Part shown: piece after piece, positions 4,889 through 15,002 of the stretch
Layout of the letters: each line of letters starts with the position of its first letter
How positions within the stretch are numbered: position 1 is the stretch's first letter
IMG/VR virus record: IMGVR_UViG_3300034198_015797
Coordinates: 1-22,168 of that record
Source: a virus
Strand: one strand, 5' to 3'
Length of the DNA stretch: 22,168 bases
Position numbers and translations under genes: made by a program
The notes under the pieces: generated by a model
The model's input: the letters and a program-made list of their open reading frames with translations, nothing else
The model's database searches: none
Told to the model about the DNA's origin: nothing

Positions 4889-7800
4889 TTAGAAAGTTCC
4901 TCCACCTACTTGTGAGATTATTGATTGGTCACCTATTAGTCTTTGTTTTACTTTTTCAGTTATAGTATTGATATTTGATAATACTGTTGAATCTATATCA
5001 CTAGGTATTAGAAGTCCATATGATACTTGTCCTTCTTTTTTATTGAATTTTAGAACAGCATTAGTTTCATCTTCTACTCTAGATAATAATGCAAAGTATG
5101 ATTTAGGAGTACTATAAAGTAAATTTACAAACCCACTAGGAATAGTAGGAGTTACCTTCATATAATTAATAGTAGTATCTGTATTACTTACTTCTGTTAT
5201 AGTAAATTCATAATCGTAATTATTACAATTAAAATACATTATATCACCTGCTTTAGGAGCAAATGGATAATCATTTCCTGTAGTATCATCAGACGTATTA
5301 TATAGAGTTGTTGAGCCTGATGGCATGTAGATGAAGTTATAAAAATTTGATATGTCAGGATCAAGATAGAAAGTATCTGCTCCTGATGTTGTTAGTATAA
5401 ATTGGTTAAATGCTGCTGTAGCGTAAGGATAAAGTCCTGTTTGGTTTTTTGGTAAATATACTTGTAAAAGTCCTTCATTCATTGAGGCTGTATAGTTACT
5501 AGTTGTAGACGATGCTAAGTAAAATCTAAATTCTACTTTATCGTTTGCTTTTAAGTTAGCAGTTGCGTTTAAATTAAAGTTTTTTGTTTGAGGTTGAGTA
5601 CCATTACTATAAAGTATCCAGTTTGCTGATGTTTGTATAGAGCGTGGTACATATGAGGTATTGAACTGGTAGTATTTTCCTCCATAATATACGAAGAAAA
5701 ATCTTTGGTCTAATACACTTAATCTATATAAATCATATTGGTATATATTAACTGTAGTACCTGCTGGTAAAGTGGCGTTTAATGTGTTTCCACTATAGAA
5801 ATTAACATTTTGAGGTAAAACCCATGGGATGGTAGATGATGGTGTGTAATATCCACCATATTGAGTAGCTAATGCTGAATTATCTAGATAATATGCTAGA
5901 TTAAATGTTTGGGTCTGTGTTCCTATTACTGTAGATCCACTTATTATATCGATAGCAAACGATGTTGTGCCTCCTGATGAGCCAAAATTTATAGTCAAAT
6001 CAAGATCAGCATTAAAAGTATATGTACCAGCAGCAGGAGAAGAATATGTAGGATATGTTGATGTACCACTACTTCCTGGTGTGTAGTATAGGCCGTCATT
6101 TACATAGGCATTATTAAAGGCATCATATACTTTACCTCCTACTAAAGGGTAATTATTTGTAGAATATCCATTTATTTTGGCAGGTATGTTATTTTTGGCT
6201 TTAAATAGCTTATATGGATTATCTCCATTATATGAGAAATAAGCACGTTGTTCTGTTGATGAGTTATATATAGCGTCTGTAGTTTTATCTATATAGAAGA
6301 ATAATATAGGATTATATGAATATCCACTATCATATGTTAATTTAGATCCATTAGTTTGTTTTTGGTTACCATATTTTTGAGGATCAAATAATGTTATTAC
6401 AGAATTAGTTCCTTTCTTAAAAGTATTTTGTACTTCAAACCAATTTAATTGTTGGTTGTTTAATTCAGTCAAATTACCATCTGCATCTACTAAATATTTT
6501 AAACGAATATTATATTTGCTAGGTAAGAAAGTATTACTACTAATATCAGTAAATAAGGCCAGTTTATATGAATTTCTATCTATTACGGCTGCTTTACCAT
6601 ATGATTTATCTGTAATAGTATAAGTATTATATTTTGAACTATATATTTTTACACCTTCGTGTCTAGATAAGTTATATGAAGCTAATGATTCATATGAATC
6701 TTGTAAAGCTACTGGTAGTAATAGACTTTGAGTAGAGTATGGTTGTTTTTCTACTTTTAGTCTATCTAATGATAATCTACTAGCAGAAACATTATTTAAC
6801 AAAACATTATAATCAGTATGTTCAAATTGGTATTGATTTACACTTGATGTTGGATGAATATAAGGATTAAACTGACCTGAGTAGCTTACAAATAAATCTA
6901 CTGTGCTGCCTGGTATAGTACCATCATAGAATGCTACTTTATTTCCTCCTAATTTATCATAATAGTATGTATTATCTTCAGTTATAGTAGGACCATTATA
7001 CTCAGCGTCATATACTGTTTGTTCAGTTATATTAGGTTCGTTTCTTTTAAATTTAATACGTTCTAATGACTGTTGACGTATTGTAACACCTTCAGTTAAA
7101 TTAGCTTTAGCAGGAACATAATTTTTAAGCATTTTAAATAAAGTATTATCAAAATACTTAATAAGTTGAATAAACCCATTTATATCATATGAATAGCTAA
7201 ATGATGATGATATTGCTTGGTATCGTACATTATTTAAATTAGTATACTCTACATCATTAAATGTACGTGGATCTCCTATATAATCATCTATGCTAAAACT
7301 AGGGTATAGAGTAGCTACTGATGATGATATGGTTACATCAAGTTGATTTTGAGGTGAGAATGAAACATCTACTCTATCACTATCATTTTTATAATCAATA
7401 TATAGATTATCTGTTGCTAATTTAATATTAGGAGATAATACACTACCTGTAACTCCATAATAACTTGATGAATATACAGTATTATTTACTATTCTTACTT
7501 TATTAGAATTTGAGTCTATTAAAGAAGCAGCAGTATTGGTATTACCACCATATTCTTTAATTCCTAATATACTTCCTGTTATACCAAATGTAGTAACTAA
7601 TTCTTGCAAACCACGTTTTGATCCTTTACCTTTAAATAGTAAAGGAACATTATGGTAAATTCTTTTATATAATTCAGCAATTAAATCTTTAGAAGGAACA
7701 TTACTACCACTTATAGCAACAGCATAAGTTCCTAAATTATCATCCTCACTACTGTTATATATGTTAACACCTAAATCTTGTAAAGCATAATATACTAAGT

Positions 7801-9184
7801 CTCTAGATACACCTTGATCTAAATTATTATAACTTTTATATAAATCAGTAACTGATTTTAGATAGATCCATATATTGTCAAAATAATGACCTATCATATT
7901 GATAAATGTTAAATAAGGTGTGTTATTTTCATCTATTCTAATATATTCAGGTACTAGAAACACTAAATTATCGGCATTATTTACATCGTAATTTATTGCT
8001 AAATCTAGCGTATTGTTGTACCAAGTTATAGCAGTTGCTGATCCTGTTGATTGTAGTGTGTAAGGTGCTGTTGAAGTTGATTTAGGCCAAGTTCCTGATC
8101 CTGTTTCAAAATATAGGTAACTTTCATATCCATCAAATTTTGATACTATATCATTTATACTAGATGAATATTGATTTATTAATGTTTGTAGGCTAGAAGT
8201 TGTGGCTACGCTTGAAGAATAATTTGTAATAAAATTATTATAGTCTTCTATTTGTTTTACCTTACCATAGAAATTTTCTACACGTTTTTCAGCAGAACCA
8301 AACCTTACAAAATCATTAAAGCTACCACTATAGTTTACATTTATTTGTATTGATTGTTGATCTAAATGATTTAATATAGCATGTAATGAAGACCCAGTAA
8401 ATTGTAATAAAGTATTATGAGACTCATATTGAGTAGGTAAAGTATTTTTTTCTGCTACTTCAATATCAAAGTTAGCCCCTCTTAATTGAGGTAAAGGATC
8501 AGGGATAATTTGTGATTCTAAAGTAACATCAAATTTTACAGCATTTATTATTTCTTCTACAACCCAAAAAGTATCTTTTTCTACTATATTAGATGGTAGA
8601 GGTTCATATAGTTTAAATAATATATAATACTCATTAGGATTTGACTTATCTAAAGCAATATTTGTTATAGGTAATACATTGTTATCACCAAAATTTAATA
8701 AGTATGTTTTTAGATAAGGTACAGAATTTTTATCATCTATTAAAGCATTAGCTTGTTGTTCTAATGAACCACTAGATAAAGTTACAGATGAAATTTTTAA
8801 TTCAGTTCTATCAGGAGATATTTCTTTAATGAATAAATCTCTATTGATGTAATCAGAAATATGTCTCTTAAAAAATGAATATTGAGGAGCAAATTCACCT
8901 ACATTTGTAAACGCCTGTAAATCAGCAGTTGGGTTTATTTCTAATACTGGGAAAGTACCATCAATATTATATGAAGAATTGCTAGGTAAGCTATAACTTT
9001 GATAATTATAGTTTATATCTATAAAGTTTCCTACTATGTCATATATAGTATACTCTATATAGTCTGTGTCAGGGTTAAAGTTAGTTACTATGGTTTGTGT
9101 TCCAATAAGAGAAATATCGTTTACATTGAAACGATTGATAGTACTAGAACTATTTACATTACCTAATATTTTTATTTGAGCCAT
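4889..9184 (-). CDS. Giant baseplate protein, T4 gp7 / P2 gpI-like, with fibre-like C-terminal part
   Basis: A 1431-residue structural protein. Around residues 500-545 it has ELYKRIYHNVPLL, then KGSKRGLQELVTTFG and IKEYGG. This is the pattern (arginine, hydrophobic stretch, KGT/S, aromatic-rich helix, FG, basic-E) of the gpI-like domain of contractile-tail baseplates, whose T4 counterpart is part of gp7. The N-terminal 150 residues include FIKEISPDRTELKIS, a segment I associate with large wedge proteins of marine myophages. The region around 1040-1240 is rich in beta strands and Gly/Ser/Tyr and resembles a carbohydrate- or surface-binding insertion. It is longer than T4 gp7 (about 1030 residues). 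It likely forms the wedge arm linking the gp6/gp25 ring to peripheral fibres. Assignment to gp7/gpI is by motif only. Confidence 0.6.
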   Translation of the reverse strand: MAQIKILGNVNSSSTINRFNVNDISLIGTQTIVTNFNPDTDYIEYTIYDIVGNFIDINYNYQSYSLPSNSSYNIDGTFPVLEINPTADLQAFTNVGEFAPQYSFFKRHISDYINRDLFIKEISPDRTELKISSVTLSSGSLEQQANALIDDKNSVPYLKTYLLNFGDNNVLPITNIALDKSNPNEYYILFKLYEPLPSNIVEKDTFWVVEEIINAVKFDVTLESQIIPDPLPQLRGANFDIEVAEKNTLPTQYESHNTLLQFTGSSLHAILNHLDQQSIQINVNYSGSFNDFVRFGSAEKRVENFYGKVKQIEDYNNFITNYSSSVATTSSLQTLINQYSSSINDIVSKFDGYESYLYFETGSGTWPKSTSTAPYTLQSTGSATAITWYNNTLDLAINYDVNNADNLVFLVPEYIRIDENNTPYLTFINMIGHYFDNIWIYLKSVTDLYKSYNNLDQGVSRDLVYYALQDLGVNIYNSSEDDNLGTYAVAISGSNVPSKDLIAELYKRIYHNVPLLFKGKGSKRGLQELVTTFGITGSILGIKEYGGNTNTAASLIDSNSNKVRIVNNTVYSSSYYGVTGSVLSPNIKLATDNLYIDYKNDSDRVDVSFSPQNQLDVTISSSVATLYPSFSIDDYIGDPRTFNDVEYTNLNNVRYQAISSSFSYSYDINGFIQLIKYFDNTLFKMLKNYVPAKANLTEGVTIRQQSLERIKFKRNEPNITEQTVYDAEYNGPTITEDNTYYYDKLGGNKVAFYDGTIPGSTVDLFVSYSGQFNPYIHPTSSVNQYQFEHTDYNVLLNNVSASRLSLDRLKVEKQPYSTQSLLLPVALQDSYESLASYNLSRHEGVKIYSSKYNTYTITDKSYGKAAVIDRNSYKLALFTDISSNTFLPSKYNIRLKYLVDADGNLTELNNQQLNWFEVQNTFKKGTNSVITLFDPQKYGNQKQTNGSKLTYDSGYSYNPILFFYIDKTTDAIYNSSTEQRAYFSYNGDNPYKLFKAKNNIPAKINGYSTNNYPLVGGKVYDAFNNAYVNDGLYYTPGSSGTSTYPTYSSPAAGTYTFNADLDLTINFGSSGGTTSFAIDIISGSTVIGTQTQTFNLAYYLDNSALATQYGGYYTPSSTIPWVLPQNVNFYSGNTLNATLPAGTTVNIYQYDLYRLSVLDQRFFFVYYGGKYYQFNTSYVPRSIQTSANWILYSNGTQPQTKNFNLNATANLKANDKVEFRFYLASSTTSNYTASMNEGLLQVYLPKNQTGLYPYATAAFNQFILTTSGADTFYLDPDISNFYNFIYMPSGSTTLYNTSDDTTGNDYPFAPKAGDIMYFNCNNYDYEFTITEVSNTDTTINYMKVTPTIPSGFVNLLYSTPKSYFALLSRVEDETNAVLKFNKKEGQVSYGLLIPSDIDSTVLSNINTITEKVKQRLIGDQSIISQVGGGTF

Positions 9185-9189
9185 TTATA

Positions 9190-9525
9190 TTACTTTATTT
9201 TAGCTAAATCTGCTATAGTTTGATTATCTGCTAATATTTGTCTTCTTAATCCTGCTATTTCTTCTATTAAAGCTTGAATTGAAGCATCATCTGCTAATTT
9301 GACACCTAAATATTCAGCTGTTTTATTTAAGATATAAGTGTGTGAATTAGTTTCTCCTTCTTTAGGAATTTGATAAAATAATTCATCATATATTTGAAAG
9401 AATTCTTCAACTGTTGTTTGATTTAAAGATGTAGGTGTACTAACAGTAAATGTTTTAAATTCTGTATCTAGTACTTTGTTGTAGTCATTTCCTACAACAT
9501 TATTTTTTGATGTAACTTCAGCCAT
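9190..9525 (-). CDS. Small putative virion protein
   Basis: A 111-residue protein between two large structural genes, with a 5-base gap on one side and a TAATG stop/start overlap on the other, so it is translated with them. The N-terminal half is Asn/Thr-rich. The middle (about 45-75) is mixed, with EEFFQIYDELFYQIP. The C-terminal 30 residues (QALIEEIAGLRRQILADNQT) form a clear amphipathic, probably coiled-coil helix. No known domain is recognised. Location suggests a baseplate or fibre adaptor, possibly oligomerising through its C-terminal helix. Function is inferred from position only. Confidence 0.5.
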   Translation of the reverse strand: MAEVTSKNNVVGNDYNKVLDTEFKTFTVSTPTSLNQTTVEEFFQIYDELFYQIPKEGETNSHTYILNKTAEYLGVKLADDASIQALIEEIAGLRRQILADNQTIADLAKIK

Positions 9526-10613
9526 TATCTAATTACTTTAAAATAATAATTATCGTCTAATACTAATGTACTTCCACTTATTATGGTTTTAATTAATACC
9601 TTATAATAACGTTCTGGTTGTAGACCATTCATATAAACATCAAAATAGTTCCCATTAGAATCAGCACTTATTTTAGTATAAGTAGTATCATAATCTATTA
9701 TTATTTCTTCACTATCTAAATCCATTATTGACCAATATGAAGATGTAGGTAATAGTTTATTATTCAAATATACTGAAGATGTTTGGAAACTCCTAGCAGG
9801 ATATTTGTCTCTTACATTTACTCGGAAACGTTGAACTGAATCTTGTTGGTATTCGTTTTTATTATTGCCTAAAGTAGCTACTATTTTATCAGATGTTACT
9901 GTAGTTAAAGAACCAGTACTGTAAATAAAATCATTCCATCTTATTTCTAAGCATGGAGGATATATAGTATGAGTATTTCCTGAGAAATATTTTGTTTCAA
10001 AGTATGAACTTGTAGTGAATTCTAAAGAATTAGCATGTTTTATAATAAGTCCATTATTAGATAATGAACCGTTAGACCATGATACTACAGTATTTGTTAC
10101 ATCTAGTCCTATATCTTTAGAAGTAGCAAATGTAAATGATTGTGTTGATTGTAAATTATAGTACCAAGTACCACCACCTATACTTGAAATAGCAAAAGAT
10201 GCAGTTACGTTTGTTGCAAAGCTACCTGTTCCCCAAGCACTACCACTTAACCCTGTTCTCCATCTCCAACTTACACCATCAGTAGTTTCAGGTACATTGG
10301 CTGTTCTACCAGTACCCATATTCCAACTTGATGATATTGGATAACAATATAATGTATAATTCAATGGAATCTCACTAGCATTAGCTAAATATGCTTTTAA
10401 ATATACATTATAATTAGCATTTGATACTTTATTTGTTATTACATCTTGTATTTCAGATGTAGGAAATTGTAATAAAGCACGTGATACTTCAGGGGTGCTA
10501 TTAATAGAGTTATATAGACTAATGTCTAATATTTCATCTAATCCCGTATTTTTATTGGGATAGAATGAAAATAGGGTGGCAGTCTGTTCAGGAAATATTT
10601 TATATACAGCCAT
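9525..10613 (-). CDS. DNRLRE-like beta-sandwich structural protein
   Basis: A 362-residue protein. Its N-terminal half (about 1-215) follows the pattern of DNRLRE-type beta-sandwiches: an opening strand with ATLFSFYPNKNTGLDEILDI, then VSRALLQFPTSEI, later helix-poor strands with WRWRTG and a repeated pattern of hydrophobic strands. The C-terminal half (about 230-362) contains RFRVNVRDKYPARSFQ and a final strand pair ending KVIR. DNRLRE domains occur in secreted and virion-surface proteins and probably bind carbohydrate or give structural stability. It is the first gene after the endolysin terminator and carries a candidate promoter motif 17 bases upstream, so it probably heads the transcript with the 111- and 1431-residue proteins. 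Match to the family is by eye. Confidence 0.5.
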   Translation of the reverse strand: MAVYKIFPEQTATLFSFYPNKNTGLDEILDISLYNSINSTPEVSRALLQFPTSEIQDVITNKVSNANYNVYLKAYLANASEIPLNYTLYCYPISSSWNMGTGRTANVPETTDGVSWRWRTGLSGSAWGTGSFATNVTASFAISSIGGGTWYYNLQSTQSFTFATSKDIGLDVTNTVVSWSNGSLSNNGLIIKHANSLEFTTSSYFETKYFSGNTHTIYPPCLEIRWNDFIYSTGSLTTVTSDKIVATLGNNKNEYQQDSVQRFRVNVRDKYPARSFQTSSVYLNNKLLPTSSYWSIMDLDSEEIIIDYDTTYTKISADSNGNYFDVYMNGLQPERYYKVLIKTIISGSTLVLDDNYYFKVIR

Positions 10614-10688: not shown

Positions 10689-11288
10689 TTAAGCTAATAA
10701 TTTATAATACTCATTAAAGTGTTTTAAACGGTCAGGTAAACCTATTGTTCCACCATTAACACGTTTTGTAACAGATGTTACAACTGCTTCTGTAGCACCA
10801 CCATCGGCTATTTTATGTAGTCCATTTTTATGGAAAAACCATGCAGCAGATGCTAATGGGTATTTTGTAGCTACAAGATCTGGGTTGGCTGTTAGATCTT
10901 CATTGATGGCTTTACCAAATGCGACGTAGTTATCTTTACCTGTTAATTGGATATATCCACGTCCGCGGAATTTATATCCATCTCCTGTTGCTTCAGGGCC
11001 ATTACCCATTCTACCACCATAAACTAGATTAGCTATTTTTTCTGGTTTACGCTCATAAAGTAATGCTTTTTCATCTGTTGGGAAATATTTTCCAAAGATG
11101 CCACGTAAACCTTTAGCACCATAGTTTAGGTTTTCATTTACTGCTTTGAATCCACCAGATTCATGTCCTGCTTGTGCTAGGAAGTGTGCTAAGCGAAGTG
11201 AGGTGTTTAGTTCAAATTTTGTGATTGTGTCCGGTAACATTTCGATAACCGAATCAGGAATGTGTCCTTTTAGTTTGTTGATGTCCAT
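10689..11288 (-). CDS. GH19 endolysin (chitinase-like muramidase)
   Basis: A 199-residue glycoside hydrolase family 19 enzyme; in phages these cut peptidoglycan glycan chains. The catalytic region begins AHFLAQAGHESGGF with the acid Glu43, followed by NENLNYGAKGL (Glu52 is the likely second glutamate). The family signature FRGRGYIQLTGKDNY is at about 107-121, and a C-terminal helix bundle completes the fold. There is no signal peptide and no added wall-binding domain, so it needs a holin or entry with the tail. It is the last gene of the baseplate operon, closed by a hairpin. A link to virion entry is inferred because the spike protein upstream shows no lysozyme domain. Family assignment is firm. 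Confidence 0.9.
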   Translation of the reverse strand: MDINKLKGHIPDSVIEMLPDTITKFELNTSLRLAHFLAQAGHESGGFKAVNENLNYGAKGLRGIFGKYFPTDEKALLYERKPEKIANLVYGGRMGNGPEATGDGYKFRGRGYIQLTGKDNYVAFGKAINEDLTANPDLVATKYPLASAAWFFHKNGLHKIADGGATEAVVTSVTKRVNGGTIGLPDRLKHFNEYYKLLA

Positions 11289-11304: not shown

Positions 11305-12006
11305 TTAATTACTACAAAACCTGGCACCAATGTGCTTTTTTCTACAATAAATATTATTTTTTACATATCCGCCTTTATCTTCTATCATTTTTTTGATTTG
11401 TTCTTTAGTATATTTTTTAGATATTGGAGTATTTTGTAAATTTAAAGTTCCATTAACTTTTAAATTATCAGGTAAGGAAGTTATAGGGGTGTTATTTAAA
11501 TTTAAAATTCCATCAACTTTTAAGTTATCAGGTAAAGATGTTATTTTAGTACCATATAAAATTAAATCTCTACCAACTTTTAAATTATTAGGTAAGGAAG
11601 TTATAGGAGTCTTGCCTAAATTTAAAATTCCATCAACTTGTAAGTTATCAGGCAAAGATGTTATTTTAGTATCCCATAAATCTAAATCTCTACCAACTTT
11701 TAAATTATCAGGTAAGGAAGTTATAGGGGTGTTATTTAAATATAAATCTCTACCAACTTTTAAGTTATTAGGTAAGGAAGTTATAGGAGTATTGCTTAAA
11801 TCTAAAGTTCCATTAATTTGTAAGTTATTAGGTAAGGAAGTTATAGGAGCTCCGCCTAAATCTAAATCACCTTTAGATCCATCTTTTATATATTGCTGGA
11901 TCTTTTTTTGTATAGATATAAGATAATTTTTTTGACGTTCTTCTTTAGAACGTCTTGGAATAAGGATCTTATTTTCTTCTTTTAGTATGTCTATTAGTTT
12001 TATCAT
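11305..12006 (-). CDS. Leucine-rich repeat protein with 20-residue repeats
   Basis: A 233-residue protein. Residues 1-46 are a helical, basic leader starting MIKLIDILKEEN. Residues 47-186 are seven 20-residue repeats with consensus xLxLxxTxITSLPxNLxVxG and an eighth partial copy. The C-terminus (TKEQIKKMIEDKGG and two cysteines at 223 and 231) is helical. The 20-residue repeat length and the LP signature resemble the short bacterial LRRs of secreted effectors such as YopM and IpaH, which bind host proteins. The leader ends in L-K-E, resembling a T4 capsid-targeting peptide cut after (L/I)-x-E. The gene abuts the WCTTY protein gene with no gap and precedes the endolysin. No catalytic domain is visible; function is unknown. 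Confidence 0.75.
   Translation of the reverse strand: MIKLIDILKEENKILIPRRSKEERQKNYLISIQKKIQQYIKDGSKGDLDLGGAPITSLPNNLQINGTLDLSNTPITSLPNNLKVGRDLYLNNTPITSLPDNLKVGRDLDLWDTKITSLPDNLQVDGILNLGKTPITSLPNNLKVGRDLILYGTKITSLPDNLKVDGILNLNNTPITSLPDNLKVNGTLNLQNTPISKKYTKEQIKKMIEDKGGYVKNNIYCRKKHIGARFCSN
11449..11868 (-). repeat. Seven 60-bp tandem repeats encoding LRRs
   Basis: The DNA repeats in register every 60 bases for 420 bases, an exact match to the 20-residue protein repeat. Two subtypes occur, one encoding TPITSLP and one encoding TKITSLP. The pair of units at 11449-11568 is closely matched by the pair at 11569-11688, so a 120-bp duplication seems to have followed the 60-bp one. Similarity is high at the DNA level, implying recent expansion or ongoing recombination. 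It is coding and direct, so it is not a CRISPR array. Confidence 0.9.
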
Positions 12007-12777: not shown

Positions 12778-14592
12778 TTAAATTGTTATAACTCTACCTT
12801 TAATATCATTGTCAGGGAAACGTACTTCAAATATACTAGGATCTAAAGAAGGATATATTATGTTATTTCTTGTAGCACCTGTTATGTCATATCCATATGG
12901 AGAATAGTCTCCTCCTTGTAAGTTATATATTTCAACTTTATGTACTGCTTGTACTTGTTTTAATTGTAATAATGTAGAATATATATCAGCTAATACAATA
13001 GGTTGATTTACTTGCCATTTATCTATTGAGAAGAAATTTTTTAAAGCGTCTATACAGGCATTTAAAGCTTCTCTATTTGATGATTGAGGTGTTGTAGTAA
13101 TATCAAAATTTATTCCTATATTAATATAGAATGCGTTTTTAATATTAATAGCATCTGTTAACATTCTATAATTCCCTAGATAAGTAACTAGGTTTGTTTT
13201 CAATGTTGAAGAGGCTTGTGTTATATTTTTATTAGCATTATATGATAGAACATATAAATCTAAAGCAGAATAATTTATAGTATCATCTGATAGTTTTTGG
13301 TTGGAATTATCTACATATGCTTTAGAGATAGTGCCATAATCGCTAGGCATACTTAATACTCTATTAGTATAGTCGTTTTTAGTTACAACACGATCTTGGG
13401 CTGAGAATGCGCCTAATGTGTTTTGTCTGATTTCTTCAACTGTATCTCCGTCTCTACCGCCTAATGATGGTTGAGCGTTATTGAAACTTAAAGAGTTGAA
13501 TAATGTATCACCTAATGTTGGGTTAGATGAGTAAACAAAATTATTAAAAGTAATATTACTAACCGTAAATCCTTTTTGAGTAATAGTATTAGCGGGTTGA
13601 TTTGAACCTATACCTCCACCTACTAAATAAGTTACTGTTAAAGTAGTATTAGATGGTGCTAAACCATATTCTCTAGCTATATAGACATTTGCCCTGTTAA
13701 AATTAGAATTAAATATGTAAGGTATTTTACCTAATTGAGTATTATCAGGATCAGGTAATATTGTTGAGTCTGATGAGTTAGATGTTCCTGCTCCAAATTG
13801 TAGCTGTAATGTAGTATCATTTATGAATCTACTTACAAAACGTTGAGGTACTTGTTTATACCCTAAAATATAAGGTACAGAACCACTATCCGCACTAGTG
13901 TTTGTTGTTTTATTTTCTATAACACTTTGAGCAAGATAAGGTACTTCATACCATGTATTAGTGCTACTGTCAGTAACATTTAATATTTGTAATATATTAT
14001 CATCTGATATATTAACTGAGGTGAATTTTTCAGGTGAACCAAAAGTATAGGTAGTTGTCTTTATGTTGGCTGATATGGCTTTTATTTGTTTCTTAAGTAG
14101 GAAATAACTTGAATTATAGTATGTTGCTTCTCTATCTAATTCAACAGCAAAATCTACTACATCAGTAGTTATGAAATTTACATTATTTATACTTTTTACA
14201 GATGAATTAGCAGGTATTTTTATAGCATAATCATAATCAGGTACTAAAACACTACCCGAAGTTTTATTAGGTACTAATTGATATACGTCTAATAATGTAG
14301 ATGATGCATATGACATTTTAGGTCGATAACCTAGACTATATGCTATATTTACTAAATTATTTTTTTCTTTAGCGTAATTTAATAGATTTTCTTGAAATTG
14401 AGTATCTAAATAGAAAGACAAATTATCACCAATATACGATGCCATTTCAATAAACATCAAACCTATTGATGTTTCTGAATAGTCATTGTATGATGTGGGG
14501 AAATAAGTTTTGGCATAGTCCTGTAATGTGCCTTTAAAGTCATCAAAGGATTTATTTAAATAAGATATATTATTTGTATTATTCGTAGCCAT
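12778..14592 (-). CDS. Baseplate wedge protein, T4 gp6 / P2 gpJ family
   Basis: A 604-residue member of the baseplate_J family, which forms the ring of the inner baseplate in contractile tails. The hallmark is at about 372-425: GGRDGDTVEEIRQNTLGAF, then RVVTKNDYTNRVLSMP and a glycine before a strand (DYGTISKAYV). The N-terminal region (SFDDFKGTLQDYAKTYFP, then ETSIGLMFIEMASYIGDNL) is typical of T4-type gp6 rather than short P2 gpJ. T4 gp6 is about 660 residues, so the length fits. The gene overlaps the gp25-like gene by one base (TAATG), reproducing the standard W-J (gp25-gp6) pairing. Confident call. Confidence 0.88.
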   Translation of the reverse strand: MATNNTNNISYLNKSFDDFKGTLQDYAKTYFPTSYNDYSETSIGLMFIEMASYIGDNLSFYLDTQFQENLLNYAKEKNNLVNIAYSLGYRPKMSYASSTLLDVYQLVPNKTSGSVLVPDYDYAIKIPANSSVKSINNVNFITTDVVDFAVELDREATYYNSSYFLLKKQIKAISANIKTTTYTFGSPEKFTSVNISDDNILQILNVTDSSTNTWYEVPYLAQSVIENKTTNTSADSGSVPYILGYKQVPQRFVSRFINDTTLQLQFGAGTSNSSDSTILPDPDNTQLGKIPYIFNSNFNRANVYIAREYGLAPSNTTLTVTYLVGGGIGSNQPANTITQKGFTVSNITFNNFVYSSNPTLGDTLFNSLSFNNAQPSLGGRDGDTVEEIRQNTLGAFSAQDRVVTKNDYTNRVLSMPSDYGTISKAYVDNSNQKLSDDTINYSALDLYVLSYNANKNITQASSTLKTNLVTYLGNYRMLTDAINIKNAFYINIGINFDITTTPQSSNREALNACIDALKNFFSIDKWQVNQPIVLADIYSTLLQLKQVQAVHKVEIYNLQGGDYSPYGYDITGATRNNIIYPSLDPSIFEVRFPDNDIKGRVITI

Positions 14593-15002
14593 TATTCAAA
14601 GTTAATAGTTATAGTGTCTTTTTCGTTAGATATTTTAATGCGATATACAAGATTTACAGTCAATGCGTTTTTATCATATGTTGGTATAACTTCTAGTTTT
14701 TCAACTACAACCTCAGGGATATAAGCATTTATAGTATCTGCTATTTCATTTGTTAGATCAGTGTATGTTTCTTCAACCATTTGATTAAATAGTTGTTTTC
14801 TTATGTCTGTACCGAAGTTAGGATTAAATACTCTTTCACCTTTATTAGTAAGTAAAAGATTAATTAGGTTATACTTTATTTGTGTCTTAAAATCATAAGT
14901 ACTTGTAAATGCTGATGGAGCACTAAAAGGTATCGCTATTCCTATAGCGATATTCTTATTTAGATTAATAGGGTTAGTTTGTACTGTTTGATTTAAAGGC
15001 AT
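14592..15002 (-). CDS. Baseplate wedge protein, T4 gp25 / P2 gpW family
   Basis: A 136-residue gp25-like protein that sits at the wedge core and helps start sheath assembly. The signature is NKGERVFNPNFGTDIRKQLF at about 53-72, with the family GER (55-57), Pro61 and Phe-Gly 63-64. An amphipathic helix DLTNEIADTINAYIPEVVV follows, then two terminal strands. Length is normal (T4 gp25 has 132 residues). It is directly followed by gp6 with a one-base overlap, the conserved order in contractile injection machines. Confidence 0.88.
   Translation of the reverse strand: MPLNQTVQTNPINLNKNIAIGIAIPFSAPSAFTSTYDFKTQIKYNLINLLLTNKGERVFNPNFGTDIRKQLFNQMVEETYTDLTNEIADTINAYIPEVVVEKLEVIPTYDKNALTVNLVYRIKISNEKDTITINFE

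Follow-up and report, generated by a model that had tools for sequence, protein, structure and literature searches.

The window analyzed here is a 22,168-base virus record (IMG/VR IMGVR_UViG_3300034198_015797), in which a single open reading frame (ORF) on the minus strand, read from 9184 to 4889 where the plus strand is riddled with stop codons, encodes a protein of 1431 amino acids (aa). On balance, we favor the reading that the C-terminal third of this baseplate protein is a host-recognition head, with an exchangeable cassette as the tip of a predicted jelly roll. In the proposed mechanism, a baseplate component of a contractile-tailed phage, probably a gp7/gpI-like wedge, would bear a C1q/TNF-type head that projects from the baseplate, and a cassette of ~100 aa between two jelly-roll strands would be the exposed tip in contact with the host surface. 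As sharp identity borders show, the cassette is swapped between phages, often together with most of the head, by recombination in the conserved DNA on either side. Some cassette types lead the chain back to the last strands, so that the protein is fused, as it is in the window, and other types end the chain, with the next gene, which starts just upstream of the last strands, making these strands and the C-terminal domain. The two polypeptides of such split genomes may jointly complete one jelly roll, the conserved C-terminal domain may anchor or close the head, and the cassette is the putative receptor-binding element.

Relatives were recovered from IMG/VR, where 148 stretches matched the search pattern and 142 encoded relatives, the best 80 of which form, with the window, a first set of 81 loci. 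A second 80 loci, overlapping the first 80, were fetched with the C-terminal module itself. The 160 loci used, including the window, comprise 140 with both parts, which were deduplicated to 85 rows by dropping duplicates only where the variable part and the module start were identical; five loci (L061, L068-L070, and L079), whose C-terminal end looks by eye like a diverged module and falls below the profile cut-off, were excluded. Among 37 full-length fused relatives, mean identity to the window is 30-68% in 30-aa blocks across aa 1-960, compared with means of 11-14% for aa 1081-1200 and 40-50% for aa 1351-1431, a layout of conserved core, variable block, and conserved end in the aligned sequences. 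The module profile (aa 1200-1431) matches 62 of the 81 first-set loci, including the window. The sequence-only reading needs a correction here, as the C-terminal part is not uniformly variable and the variable aa 1081-1200 are followed by the conserved domain at aa 1351-1431. Its description of the last several hundred residues as rich in Tyr, Gly, and Ser does not stand, since these residues make up 25.9% of aa 961-1431 versus 24.1% of the whole protein, a value reached in 718 of 5000 shuffles; Tyr content is 14.7% in the cassette and at most 9.8% in the other protein parts.

The variable part falls within a predicted fold. An AlphaFold model of aa 740-1431, built on 53 aligned rows, has a mean predicted local distance difference test score (pLDDT) of 69.5, and Foldseek searches of the PDB with it placed TNF and C1q domains at the top and yielded structures of this type in 45 of the 50 matches listed (probability 0.95-1.00, best E 1.0e-3). 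Structural comparison by VIA aligned ~aa 985-1250 with the C1q domain of Cbln1 (Z 13.2, root-mean-square deviation 2.9 Å, 133 aligned residues) and with the cell-wall-binding domain in the short tail fiber of cyanophage A-1(L) (Z 12.8), and the VIA alignments listed begin at model residues 243-253, corresponding to aa 982-992. In addition, 90 matches at E <= 0.001 were obtained in BFVD, several of which, among the matches listed, are named C1q. These results predict a C1q/TNF-type jelly roll at aa 985-1250, which confirms and sharpens the earlier suggestion of a beta-sandwich-like region near residues 1040-1240.

C1q domains of ~135 residues align almost whole across the ~260-residue span of the model, and ~100 residues are therefore read as an insertion. 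Independent support for treating the inserted residues as a cassette is provided by L217 and L231, which lack it: at the window's cassette site the flanking strands almost join, with '...TTLASQTKTF' (ending in SKSF in L231) followed after about ten residues by 'FNVTSS...NPGDKI/QI'. We infer the assignment of the individual strands from the residue range, length, and secondary structure of the model. No relative of the window's own cassette was found in IMG/VR, and profiles of the seven first-set cassette types and of the window and L020 cassettes gave no match at E <= 0.01 to any non-homologous ORF of at least 60 aa among the first-set loci. One split-type cassette occurs in 6 IMG/VR contigs, and in the four examined (L042, L050, L058, and L202) it is carried in the homologous protein; the same cassette matched nothing in the phage collection. 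A diversity-generating retroelement was rejected, with PF00078 found in none of nine relatives' records (88-190 kb, some of them possibly fragments, and the 22-kb window record not among them). In the core protein of L059, a long Thr/Pro/Ser repeat linker lies in the variable part, between the head start and the cassette.

Eight pairs of loci, picked for high core identity and differing C-terminal parts, reveal exchange of the variable block, as flanking DNA is 78-94% identical and all eight pairs lose detectable similarity, which reappears within the C-terminal module or shortly before it. The loss falls 8-34 aa past position 955 in six pairs and inside the head in L054/L036 (65 aa past) and L067/L056 (129 aa past), and similarity returns at the module start or up to ~206 aa into the module. 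In L039/L006, for example, 94% identity over 9.1 kb stops and similarity is back inside the module at 73%, and in L012/L031 an identity of 87% stops, followed by a 107-base piece at 72% and then by 88% over 3.4 kb. Four pairs cross between fused and split forms (L022/L043, L010/L017, L015/L017, and L047/L024), both members are fused in L039/L006 and L012/L031, and both are split in L054/L036 and L067/L056. As judged from these alignments, unrelated cassette types are swapped among genomes that are otherwise 78-94% identical, and such a hypervariable tip exchanged between close relatives is a feature of phage receptor-binding proteins. The idea in the sequence-only reading that a baseplate wedge carries its own receptor-binding part fits the data well, with a putative receptor role and a weak wedge identity.

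An alternative scenario is that the cassette is a docking surface for exchangeable tail fibers and varies with the fibers plugged in, rather than being a receptor-binding tip. Baseplate wedges hold fibers, and annotated tail fiber and tail spike genes lie downstream in Flavobacterium phage immuto, in keeping with this scenario. However, a cell-wall-binding domain from a phage is among the fold matches, and in five of the eight pairs (L022/L043, L054/L036, L012/L031, L010/L017, and L015/L017) similarity runs 1.9-3.4 kb past the exchanged block. The next genes are thus not co-exchanged in these five pairs, because similarity resumes after the block; the remaining three pairs could be followed for 0.6-0.8 kb, to or near the locus end, and the comparison covers nearby genes. 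We regard docking as unlikely.

The head is encoded in two arrangements. In the first set, the module profile finds the module fused in 38 rows, including the window, and separate in 24, and the 85 non-redundant rows comprise 52 fused and 33 split forms. The split point is the cassette end, after which the last strands and the conserved C-terminal domain form a separate gene that, in all 24 first-set split loci, has its own start codon at the same place, a few residues ahead of the last strands. Gaps between the two genes range from -22 to 21 bases in 31 of the 33 split rows and are often alike in size within a cassette type; the two outlying gaps belong to L053 (638), whose head lies in a different frame from the core, and to L059 (611), where an extra gene intervenes. 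Programmed frameshifting or stop read-through at the split was rejected, because the second gene occurs in all three relative frames and has its own start codon. Assembly or sequencing errors, which like a real frameshift would give the out-of-frame head of L053, are a highly improbable source of the split genes, given that split genes account for 33 of the 85 non-redundant rows and come from many metagenome samples, with the shared start site and narrow gap range described above. This explanation is refuted for the split set as a whole, with L053 alone excepted. The extra gene of L059 (7493-8074) encodes 193 aa between the core and the stand-alone module and resembles, by eye, an S-adenosylmethionine-dependent methyltransferase or a spermidine-synthase-like protein.

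The arrangement tracks the cassette type and not the core phylogeny. Clustering of 81 cassettes by sequence, omitting those with short variable parts (L217, L231, L256, and L053), gave nine multi-member types (72 rows) and nine singletons, the latter being uninformative on state; L256, which shows no clear match to the strands, was not counted as an empty site. The fused or split state is constant within each multi-member type, with none of the 72 rows deviating, compared with a lowest value of 14 in 10,000 label shuffles, and median within-type identity is just 0.29-0.44 in the six largest types. On the core tree of the 85 rows, the state requires 15 changes and the 72 clustered cassettes require 22 type changes, or 23 when the empty sites are added as a tenth group (minimum possible 9, shuffled mean 47.9), and a smaller first tree (59 rows, 7 types) requires 21 changes (minimum possible 6, shuffled mean 31.7). 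Because these values exceed the minimum and lie below the shuffled mean, cassette types are partly clustered and often exchanged.

Whether a C1q-type jelly roll may form from a single chain as well as from two gene products, the second of which would supply the last strands in trans, was approached through strand conservation in pairs matched on core identity, which are not independent of each other. Strands would be expected to drift if the split halves had ceased to pack against one another. At a core identity of 0.55-0.65, the last strands are 0.47 identical in split-split pairs versus 0.33 in fused-fused pairs. For both jelly-roll halves, split-split pairs are as alike as or more alike than fused-fused pairs in seven of eight comparisons (the eighth being 0.60 versus 0.61), and the first jelly-roll part is about equally or more conserved in split-split pairs. 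Such unrelaxed strands fit completion in trans, but the module could instead use the strands in a fold of its own; we put forward assembly from two gene products as a tentative proposal, somewhat short of an even chance.

Another explanation for the C-terminal module is that it serves as a chaperone for folding of the head or as a temporary cap, acting within the chain in fused proteins and in a Tfa-like manner as a separate gene product, and is not part of the mature head. The separate module is indeed a small gene immediately downstream of a variable tip, and downstream chaperones of Alteromonas phages are described, in the part of that source consulted, as resembling intramolecular chaperone domains and as proposed caps (PMC10579305). 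Against this, the fused model places the first strands of the module in the jelly roll of the head, and relatives without the cassette run straight on into these strands. In addition, four fused stretches and one stand-alone module gave no Pfam chaperone match at E <= 5, and PHROGs returned scattered weak matches only, including a tail assembly protein (E 0.05) in one of 53 rows. A chaperone or cap seems improbable. Searches with the module were otherwise negative: the window's module alone gave no match at E <= 0.01 in the phage collection, and the module profile found nothing among PDB sequences. T4 gp8 and gp10, compared as single sequences with the C-terminal part, and immuto 163, the gene after the immuto homologue, compared as a candidate stand-alone module, were rejected for lack of a match.

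Several observations weigh against a swappable receptor head on the baseplate. The jelly roll is modeled for the fused protein only, from an alignment that mixes fused rows with stand-alone modules, and Foldseek gave no PDB match at E <= 0.001. The Pfam C1q profile matches neither the window nor, at E <= 5, seven stretches from relatives, and the domain is therefore termed C1q-like on the basis of its fold alone. C1q/TNF heads usually assemble as trimers, an awkward fit for a wedge subunit present in one copy per wedge. L007, which belongs to the window's own clade, is without the head and the C-terminal module and has another 345-aa end instead, which speaks against the head being indispensable. 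Four of the nine cassette types (k4F, k7F, k8S, and k9S) sit on one branch each, and the core tree was built quickly and carries a warning about the meeting of long branches. The exchange pairs were chosen for differing C-terminal parts on similar cores and therefore show that exchange occurs, not how frequently. In the strand comparison, the remainder of the module served as a control and likewise scores higher between split loci (for example, 0.58 versus 0.49), and the excess is not strand-specific; a fair statement is therefore that splitting has not relaxed the strands. Finally, the gp7/gpI identity of the protein is weak.

The evidence for this identity comes mainly from gene position. 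The gene lies in a tail-baseplate cluster containing gp25-like and gp6-like genes, the latter also matching TIGR02243 (putative baseplate assembly protein) at 1.2e-11, under that model's cut-off. The gpI-like motif that the sequence-only reading placed in the middle of the protein is present, with the stretch KGSKRGLQELVTTFG at aa 520-534 inside one of the two best-conserved regions of the protein (mean identity to the window across the 37 relatives of 68% for aa 511-540 and 67% for aa 421-450), but the family membership it was taken to mark is weakly supported. A mid-protein profile of 62 rows, including immuto, Mel-JY01, and one uncultured phage, gave its best hhalign alignment to 12 P2-type gpI proteins exactly on the KGT motif (score 22.3), a score reached by one of 100 column shuffles and graded as suggestive rather than strong. 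A single P2 gpI compared with the N-terminal alignment did not recover the KGT motif alignment. The refuting outcome set out in the sequence-only reading was not observed: the C-terminal part is not conserved as strongly as the core, and a single T4 gp7 sequence, a weak comparison, matched neither the protein nor its C-terminal part. The Pfam Tail_P2_I profile (PF09684) matched neither the window nor any of three records (two homologue-bearing phages and T4), and because it misses the T4 record too, it cannot discriminate membership. Members of this family form a (gp6)2-gp7 heterotrimer. The model of aa 1-965 has a mean pLDDT of 56.8, with aa 448-615 under 50, and no Foldseek match at E <= 0.001; as this model is poor, the lack of gp7 in its fold lists is no evidence. 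For aa 1-222 there was no clear fold match (best VIA Z 8.1 over 72 residues, uninformative), and the core profile found a single weak match among PDB sequences, a vacuolar sorting protein (E 0.016). Membership in the gp7/gpI family is thus weakly supported by sequence and more by the siting beside gp25-like and gp6-like genes, and the protein is probably a gp7/gpI-like wedge component. The homologue in Microcystis phage Mel-JY01 (L083:9698-13708) has an extra stretch past the KGT motif with the appearance, judged by eye, of a LamG/concanavalin-type lectin domain, and the uncultured phage LR756508 has a lectin-like extra stretch resembling it, again by eye.

Table 1. Features of the 22,168-base window, with the evidence for each
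Feature	Position	Strand	Basis
Whole gene	4889..9184	-	1431 aa; ORF list and translation
Conserved core, aa 1-955	6320..9184	-	Block identities and homology to immuto 162
N-terminal beta-rich domain (predicted), aa 1-222	8519..9184	-	AlphaFold blocks with pLDDT 76-95
gpI/gp7-like KGT motif, aa 520-548	7541..7627	-	hhalign against 12 gpI proteins
First part of predicted C1q/TNF-like jelly roll, aa 985-1096	5897..6232	-	AlphaFold pLDDT 80-96 for aa 1010-1099
Exchangeable hypervariable cassette, aa ~1097-1198, within predicted jelly roll	5591..5896	-	pLDDT 47-73
Last strands of predicted jelly roll, aa 1199-1250	5435..5590	-	pLDDT 86-94 for aa 1200-1239
Conserved C-terminal domain, aa 1251-1431, with helix near end	4889..5434	-	pLDDT 75-93 for aa 1310-1419
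Downstream gene, 223 aa	4179..4850	-	Homologue holds the position after the exchanged C-terminus in L007
gp6/gpJ-like baseplate wedge gene	12778..14592	-	PHROG baseplate wedge, 5e-15
gp25/gpW-like baseplate wedge gene	14592..15002	-	Pfam PF04965, 1.2e-12, over cut-off

Five genes separate the gp6-like gene from the 1431-aa gene in the window, and in immuto, where the order is gp25, gp6, a 370-aa gene, a 113-aa gene, and the homologue, two genes lie between gp6 and the homologue. Immuto 162 (1265 aa) is homologous to window aa 1-713 at 34% identity. For the complete 1431-aa protein, the best E values were 0.17 in Pfam and 0.014 in PHROGs, neither of them significant, and there was no match at 0.1 in NCBIfam or at 5 among PDB sequences; a pattern scan of one genome from each of 84,980 bacterial and archaeal species produced 18 pattern matches and no confirmed close relative. 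In L007, the replacement 345-aa end (8566-9600) is unmatched in the ORFs of both locus sets (best other E 0.76), and the next gene is retained. Between the gp6-like gene and the 1431-aa gene, positions 9525-10613 encode a 362-aa protein with a DNRLRE domain match slightly under the cut-off, whose place is occupied in immuto by the 370-aa gene. The baseplate cluster also includes a glycoside hydrolase family 19 (chitinase-type) gene (10689-11288) and a leucine-rich-repeat-like protein with LPDNL repeats (11305-12006), and a similar-looking protein is encoded farther downstream in L007 (12324-13145). A SegE-type GIY-YIG homing endonuclease gene (1806-2240, Pfam 2.6e-27) adjoins the tail genes.

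If the proposed arrangement is correct, a host-recognition head would sit on a baseplate structural protein, with entire tips replaced within a conserved fold and the gene split or fused according to the tip. A single conserved receptor head, mounted on the baseplate, would then accept tips of either topology, suggesting a route by which such viruses alter what they bind. Because close relatives include both split and fused versions, completion of the fold by a second polypeptide is open to a direct test. The head could also be used as a marker to follow the exchange of tips in phage populations of the environment, in which the domain escapes Pfam.

The protein resembles T4 gp7, P2 gpI, and TssG of the type VI secretion system in its gp25-like and gp6-like gene neighborhood and in a KGT-type motif that aligns with P2-type gpI, but differs in that its sequence matches neither T4 gp7 nor Pfam Tail_P2_I significantly; a C1q-like head on the wedge protein is not described in the portions of the gp7/TssG literature consulted. 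Hypervariable C1q domains in putative receptor-binding genes have been reported in marine and cryoconite phages (PMC3909814, PMC7468147), and the parts of these reports consulted describe a proposed role in host recognition and the swapping of variants in near-identical genomes, as in the window family. There, the recognized C1q domain belongs to a separate gene near the tail fiber, whereas the C1q-like head of the window forms the end of a large baseplate protein, is invisible to Pfam, holds a cassette inside the fold, and has a split form. C1q domains are also carried by the fibers of contractile injection systems, according to the portion of the source consulted (PMC12923769).

The A-1(L) fiber domain (8KE9, PMC10966104) is phage-derived and, as noted above, among the best fold matches of the window head. 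In the sections of that report consulted, the short tail fiber is a trimeric protein, its stem plus the cell-wall-binding domain binds host cells, the domain alone did not bind, and an inserted cassette is not described. The fiber and chaperone or cap pairs of Alteromonas phages share with the window family an exchangeable tip and a downstream partner gene in intermolecular and intramolecular versions, as far as the consulted part of the source describes them (PMC10579305). Their partner is a chaperone with its own fold, whereas the partner in the window family would, by the fused model, supply strands of the head fold. In the open-licence literature, covered as titles and abstract openings among the matches listed, there was no C1q-like head on a baseplate wedge protein, no cassette inside a C1q-like head, and no cassette-dependent split. 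Hypervariability of C1q domains encoded by putative receptor-binding genes of phages has been published before, and, within the limits of this literature, the baseplate carrier, the cassette inside the fold, and the split locked to cassette type are apparently new.

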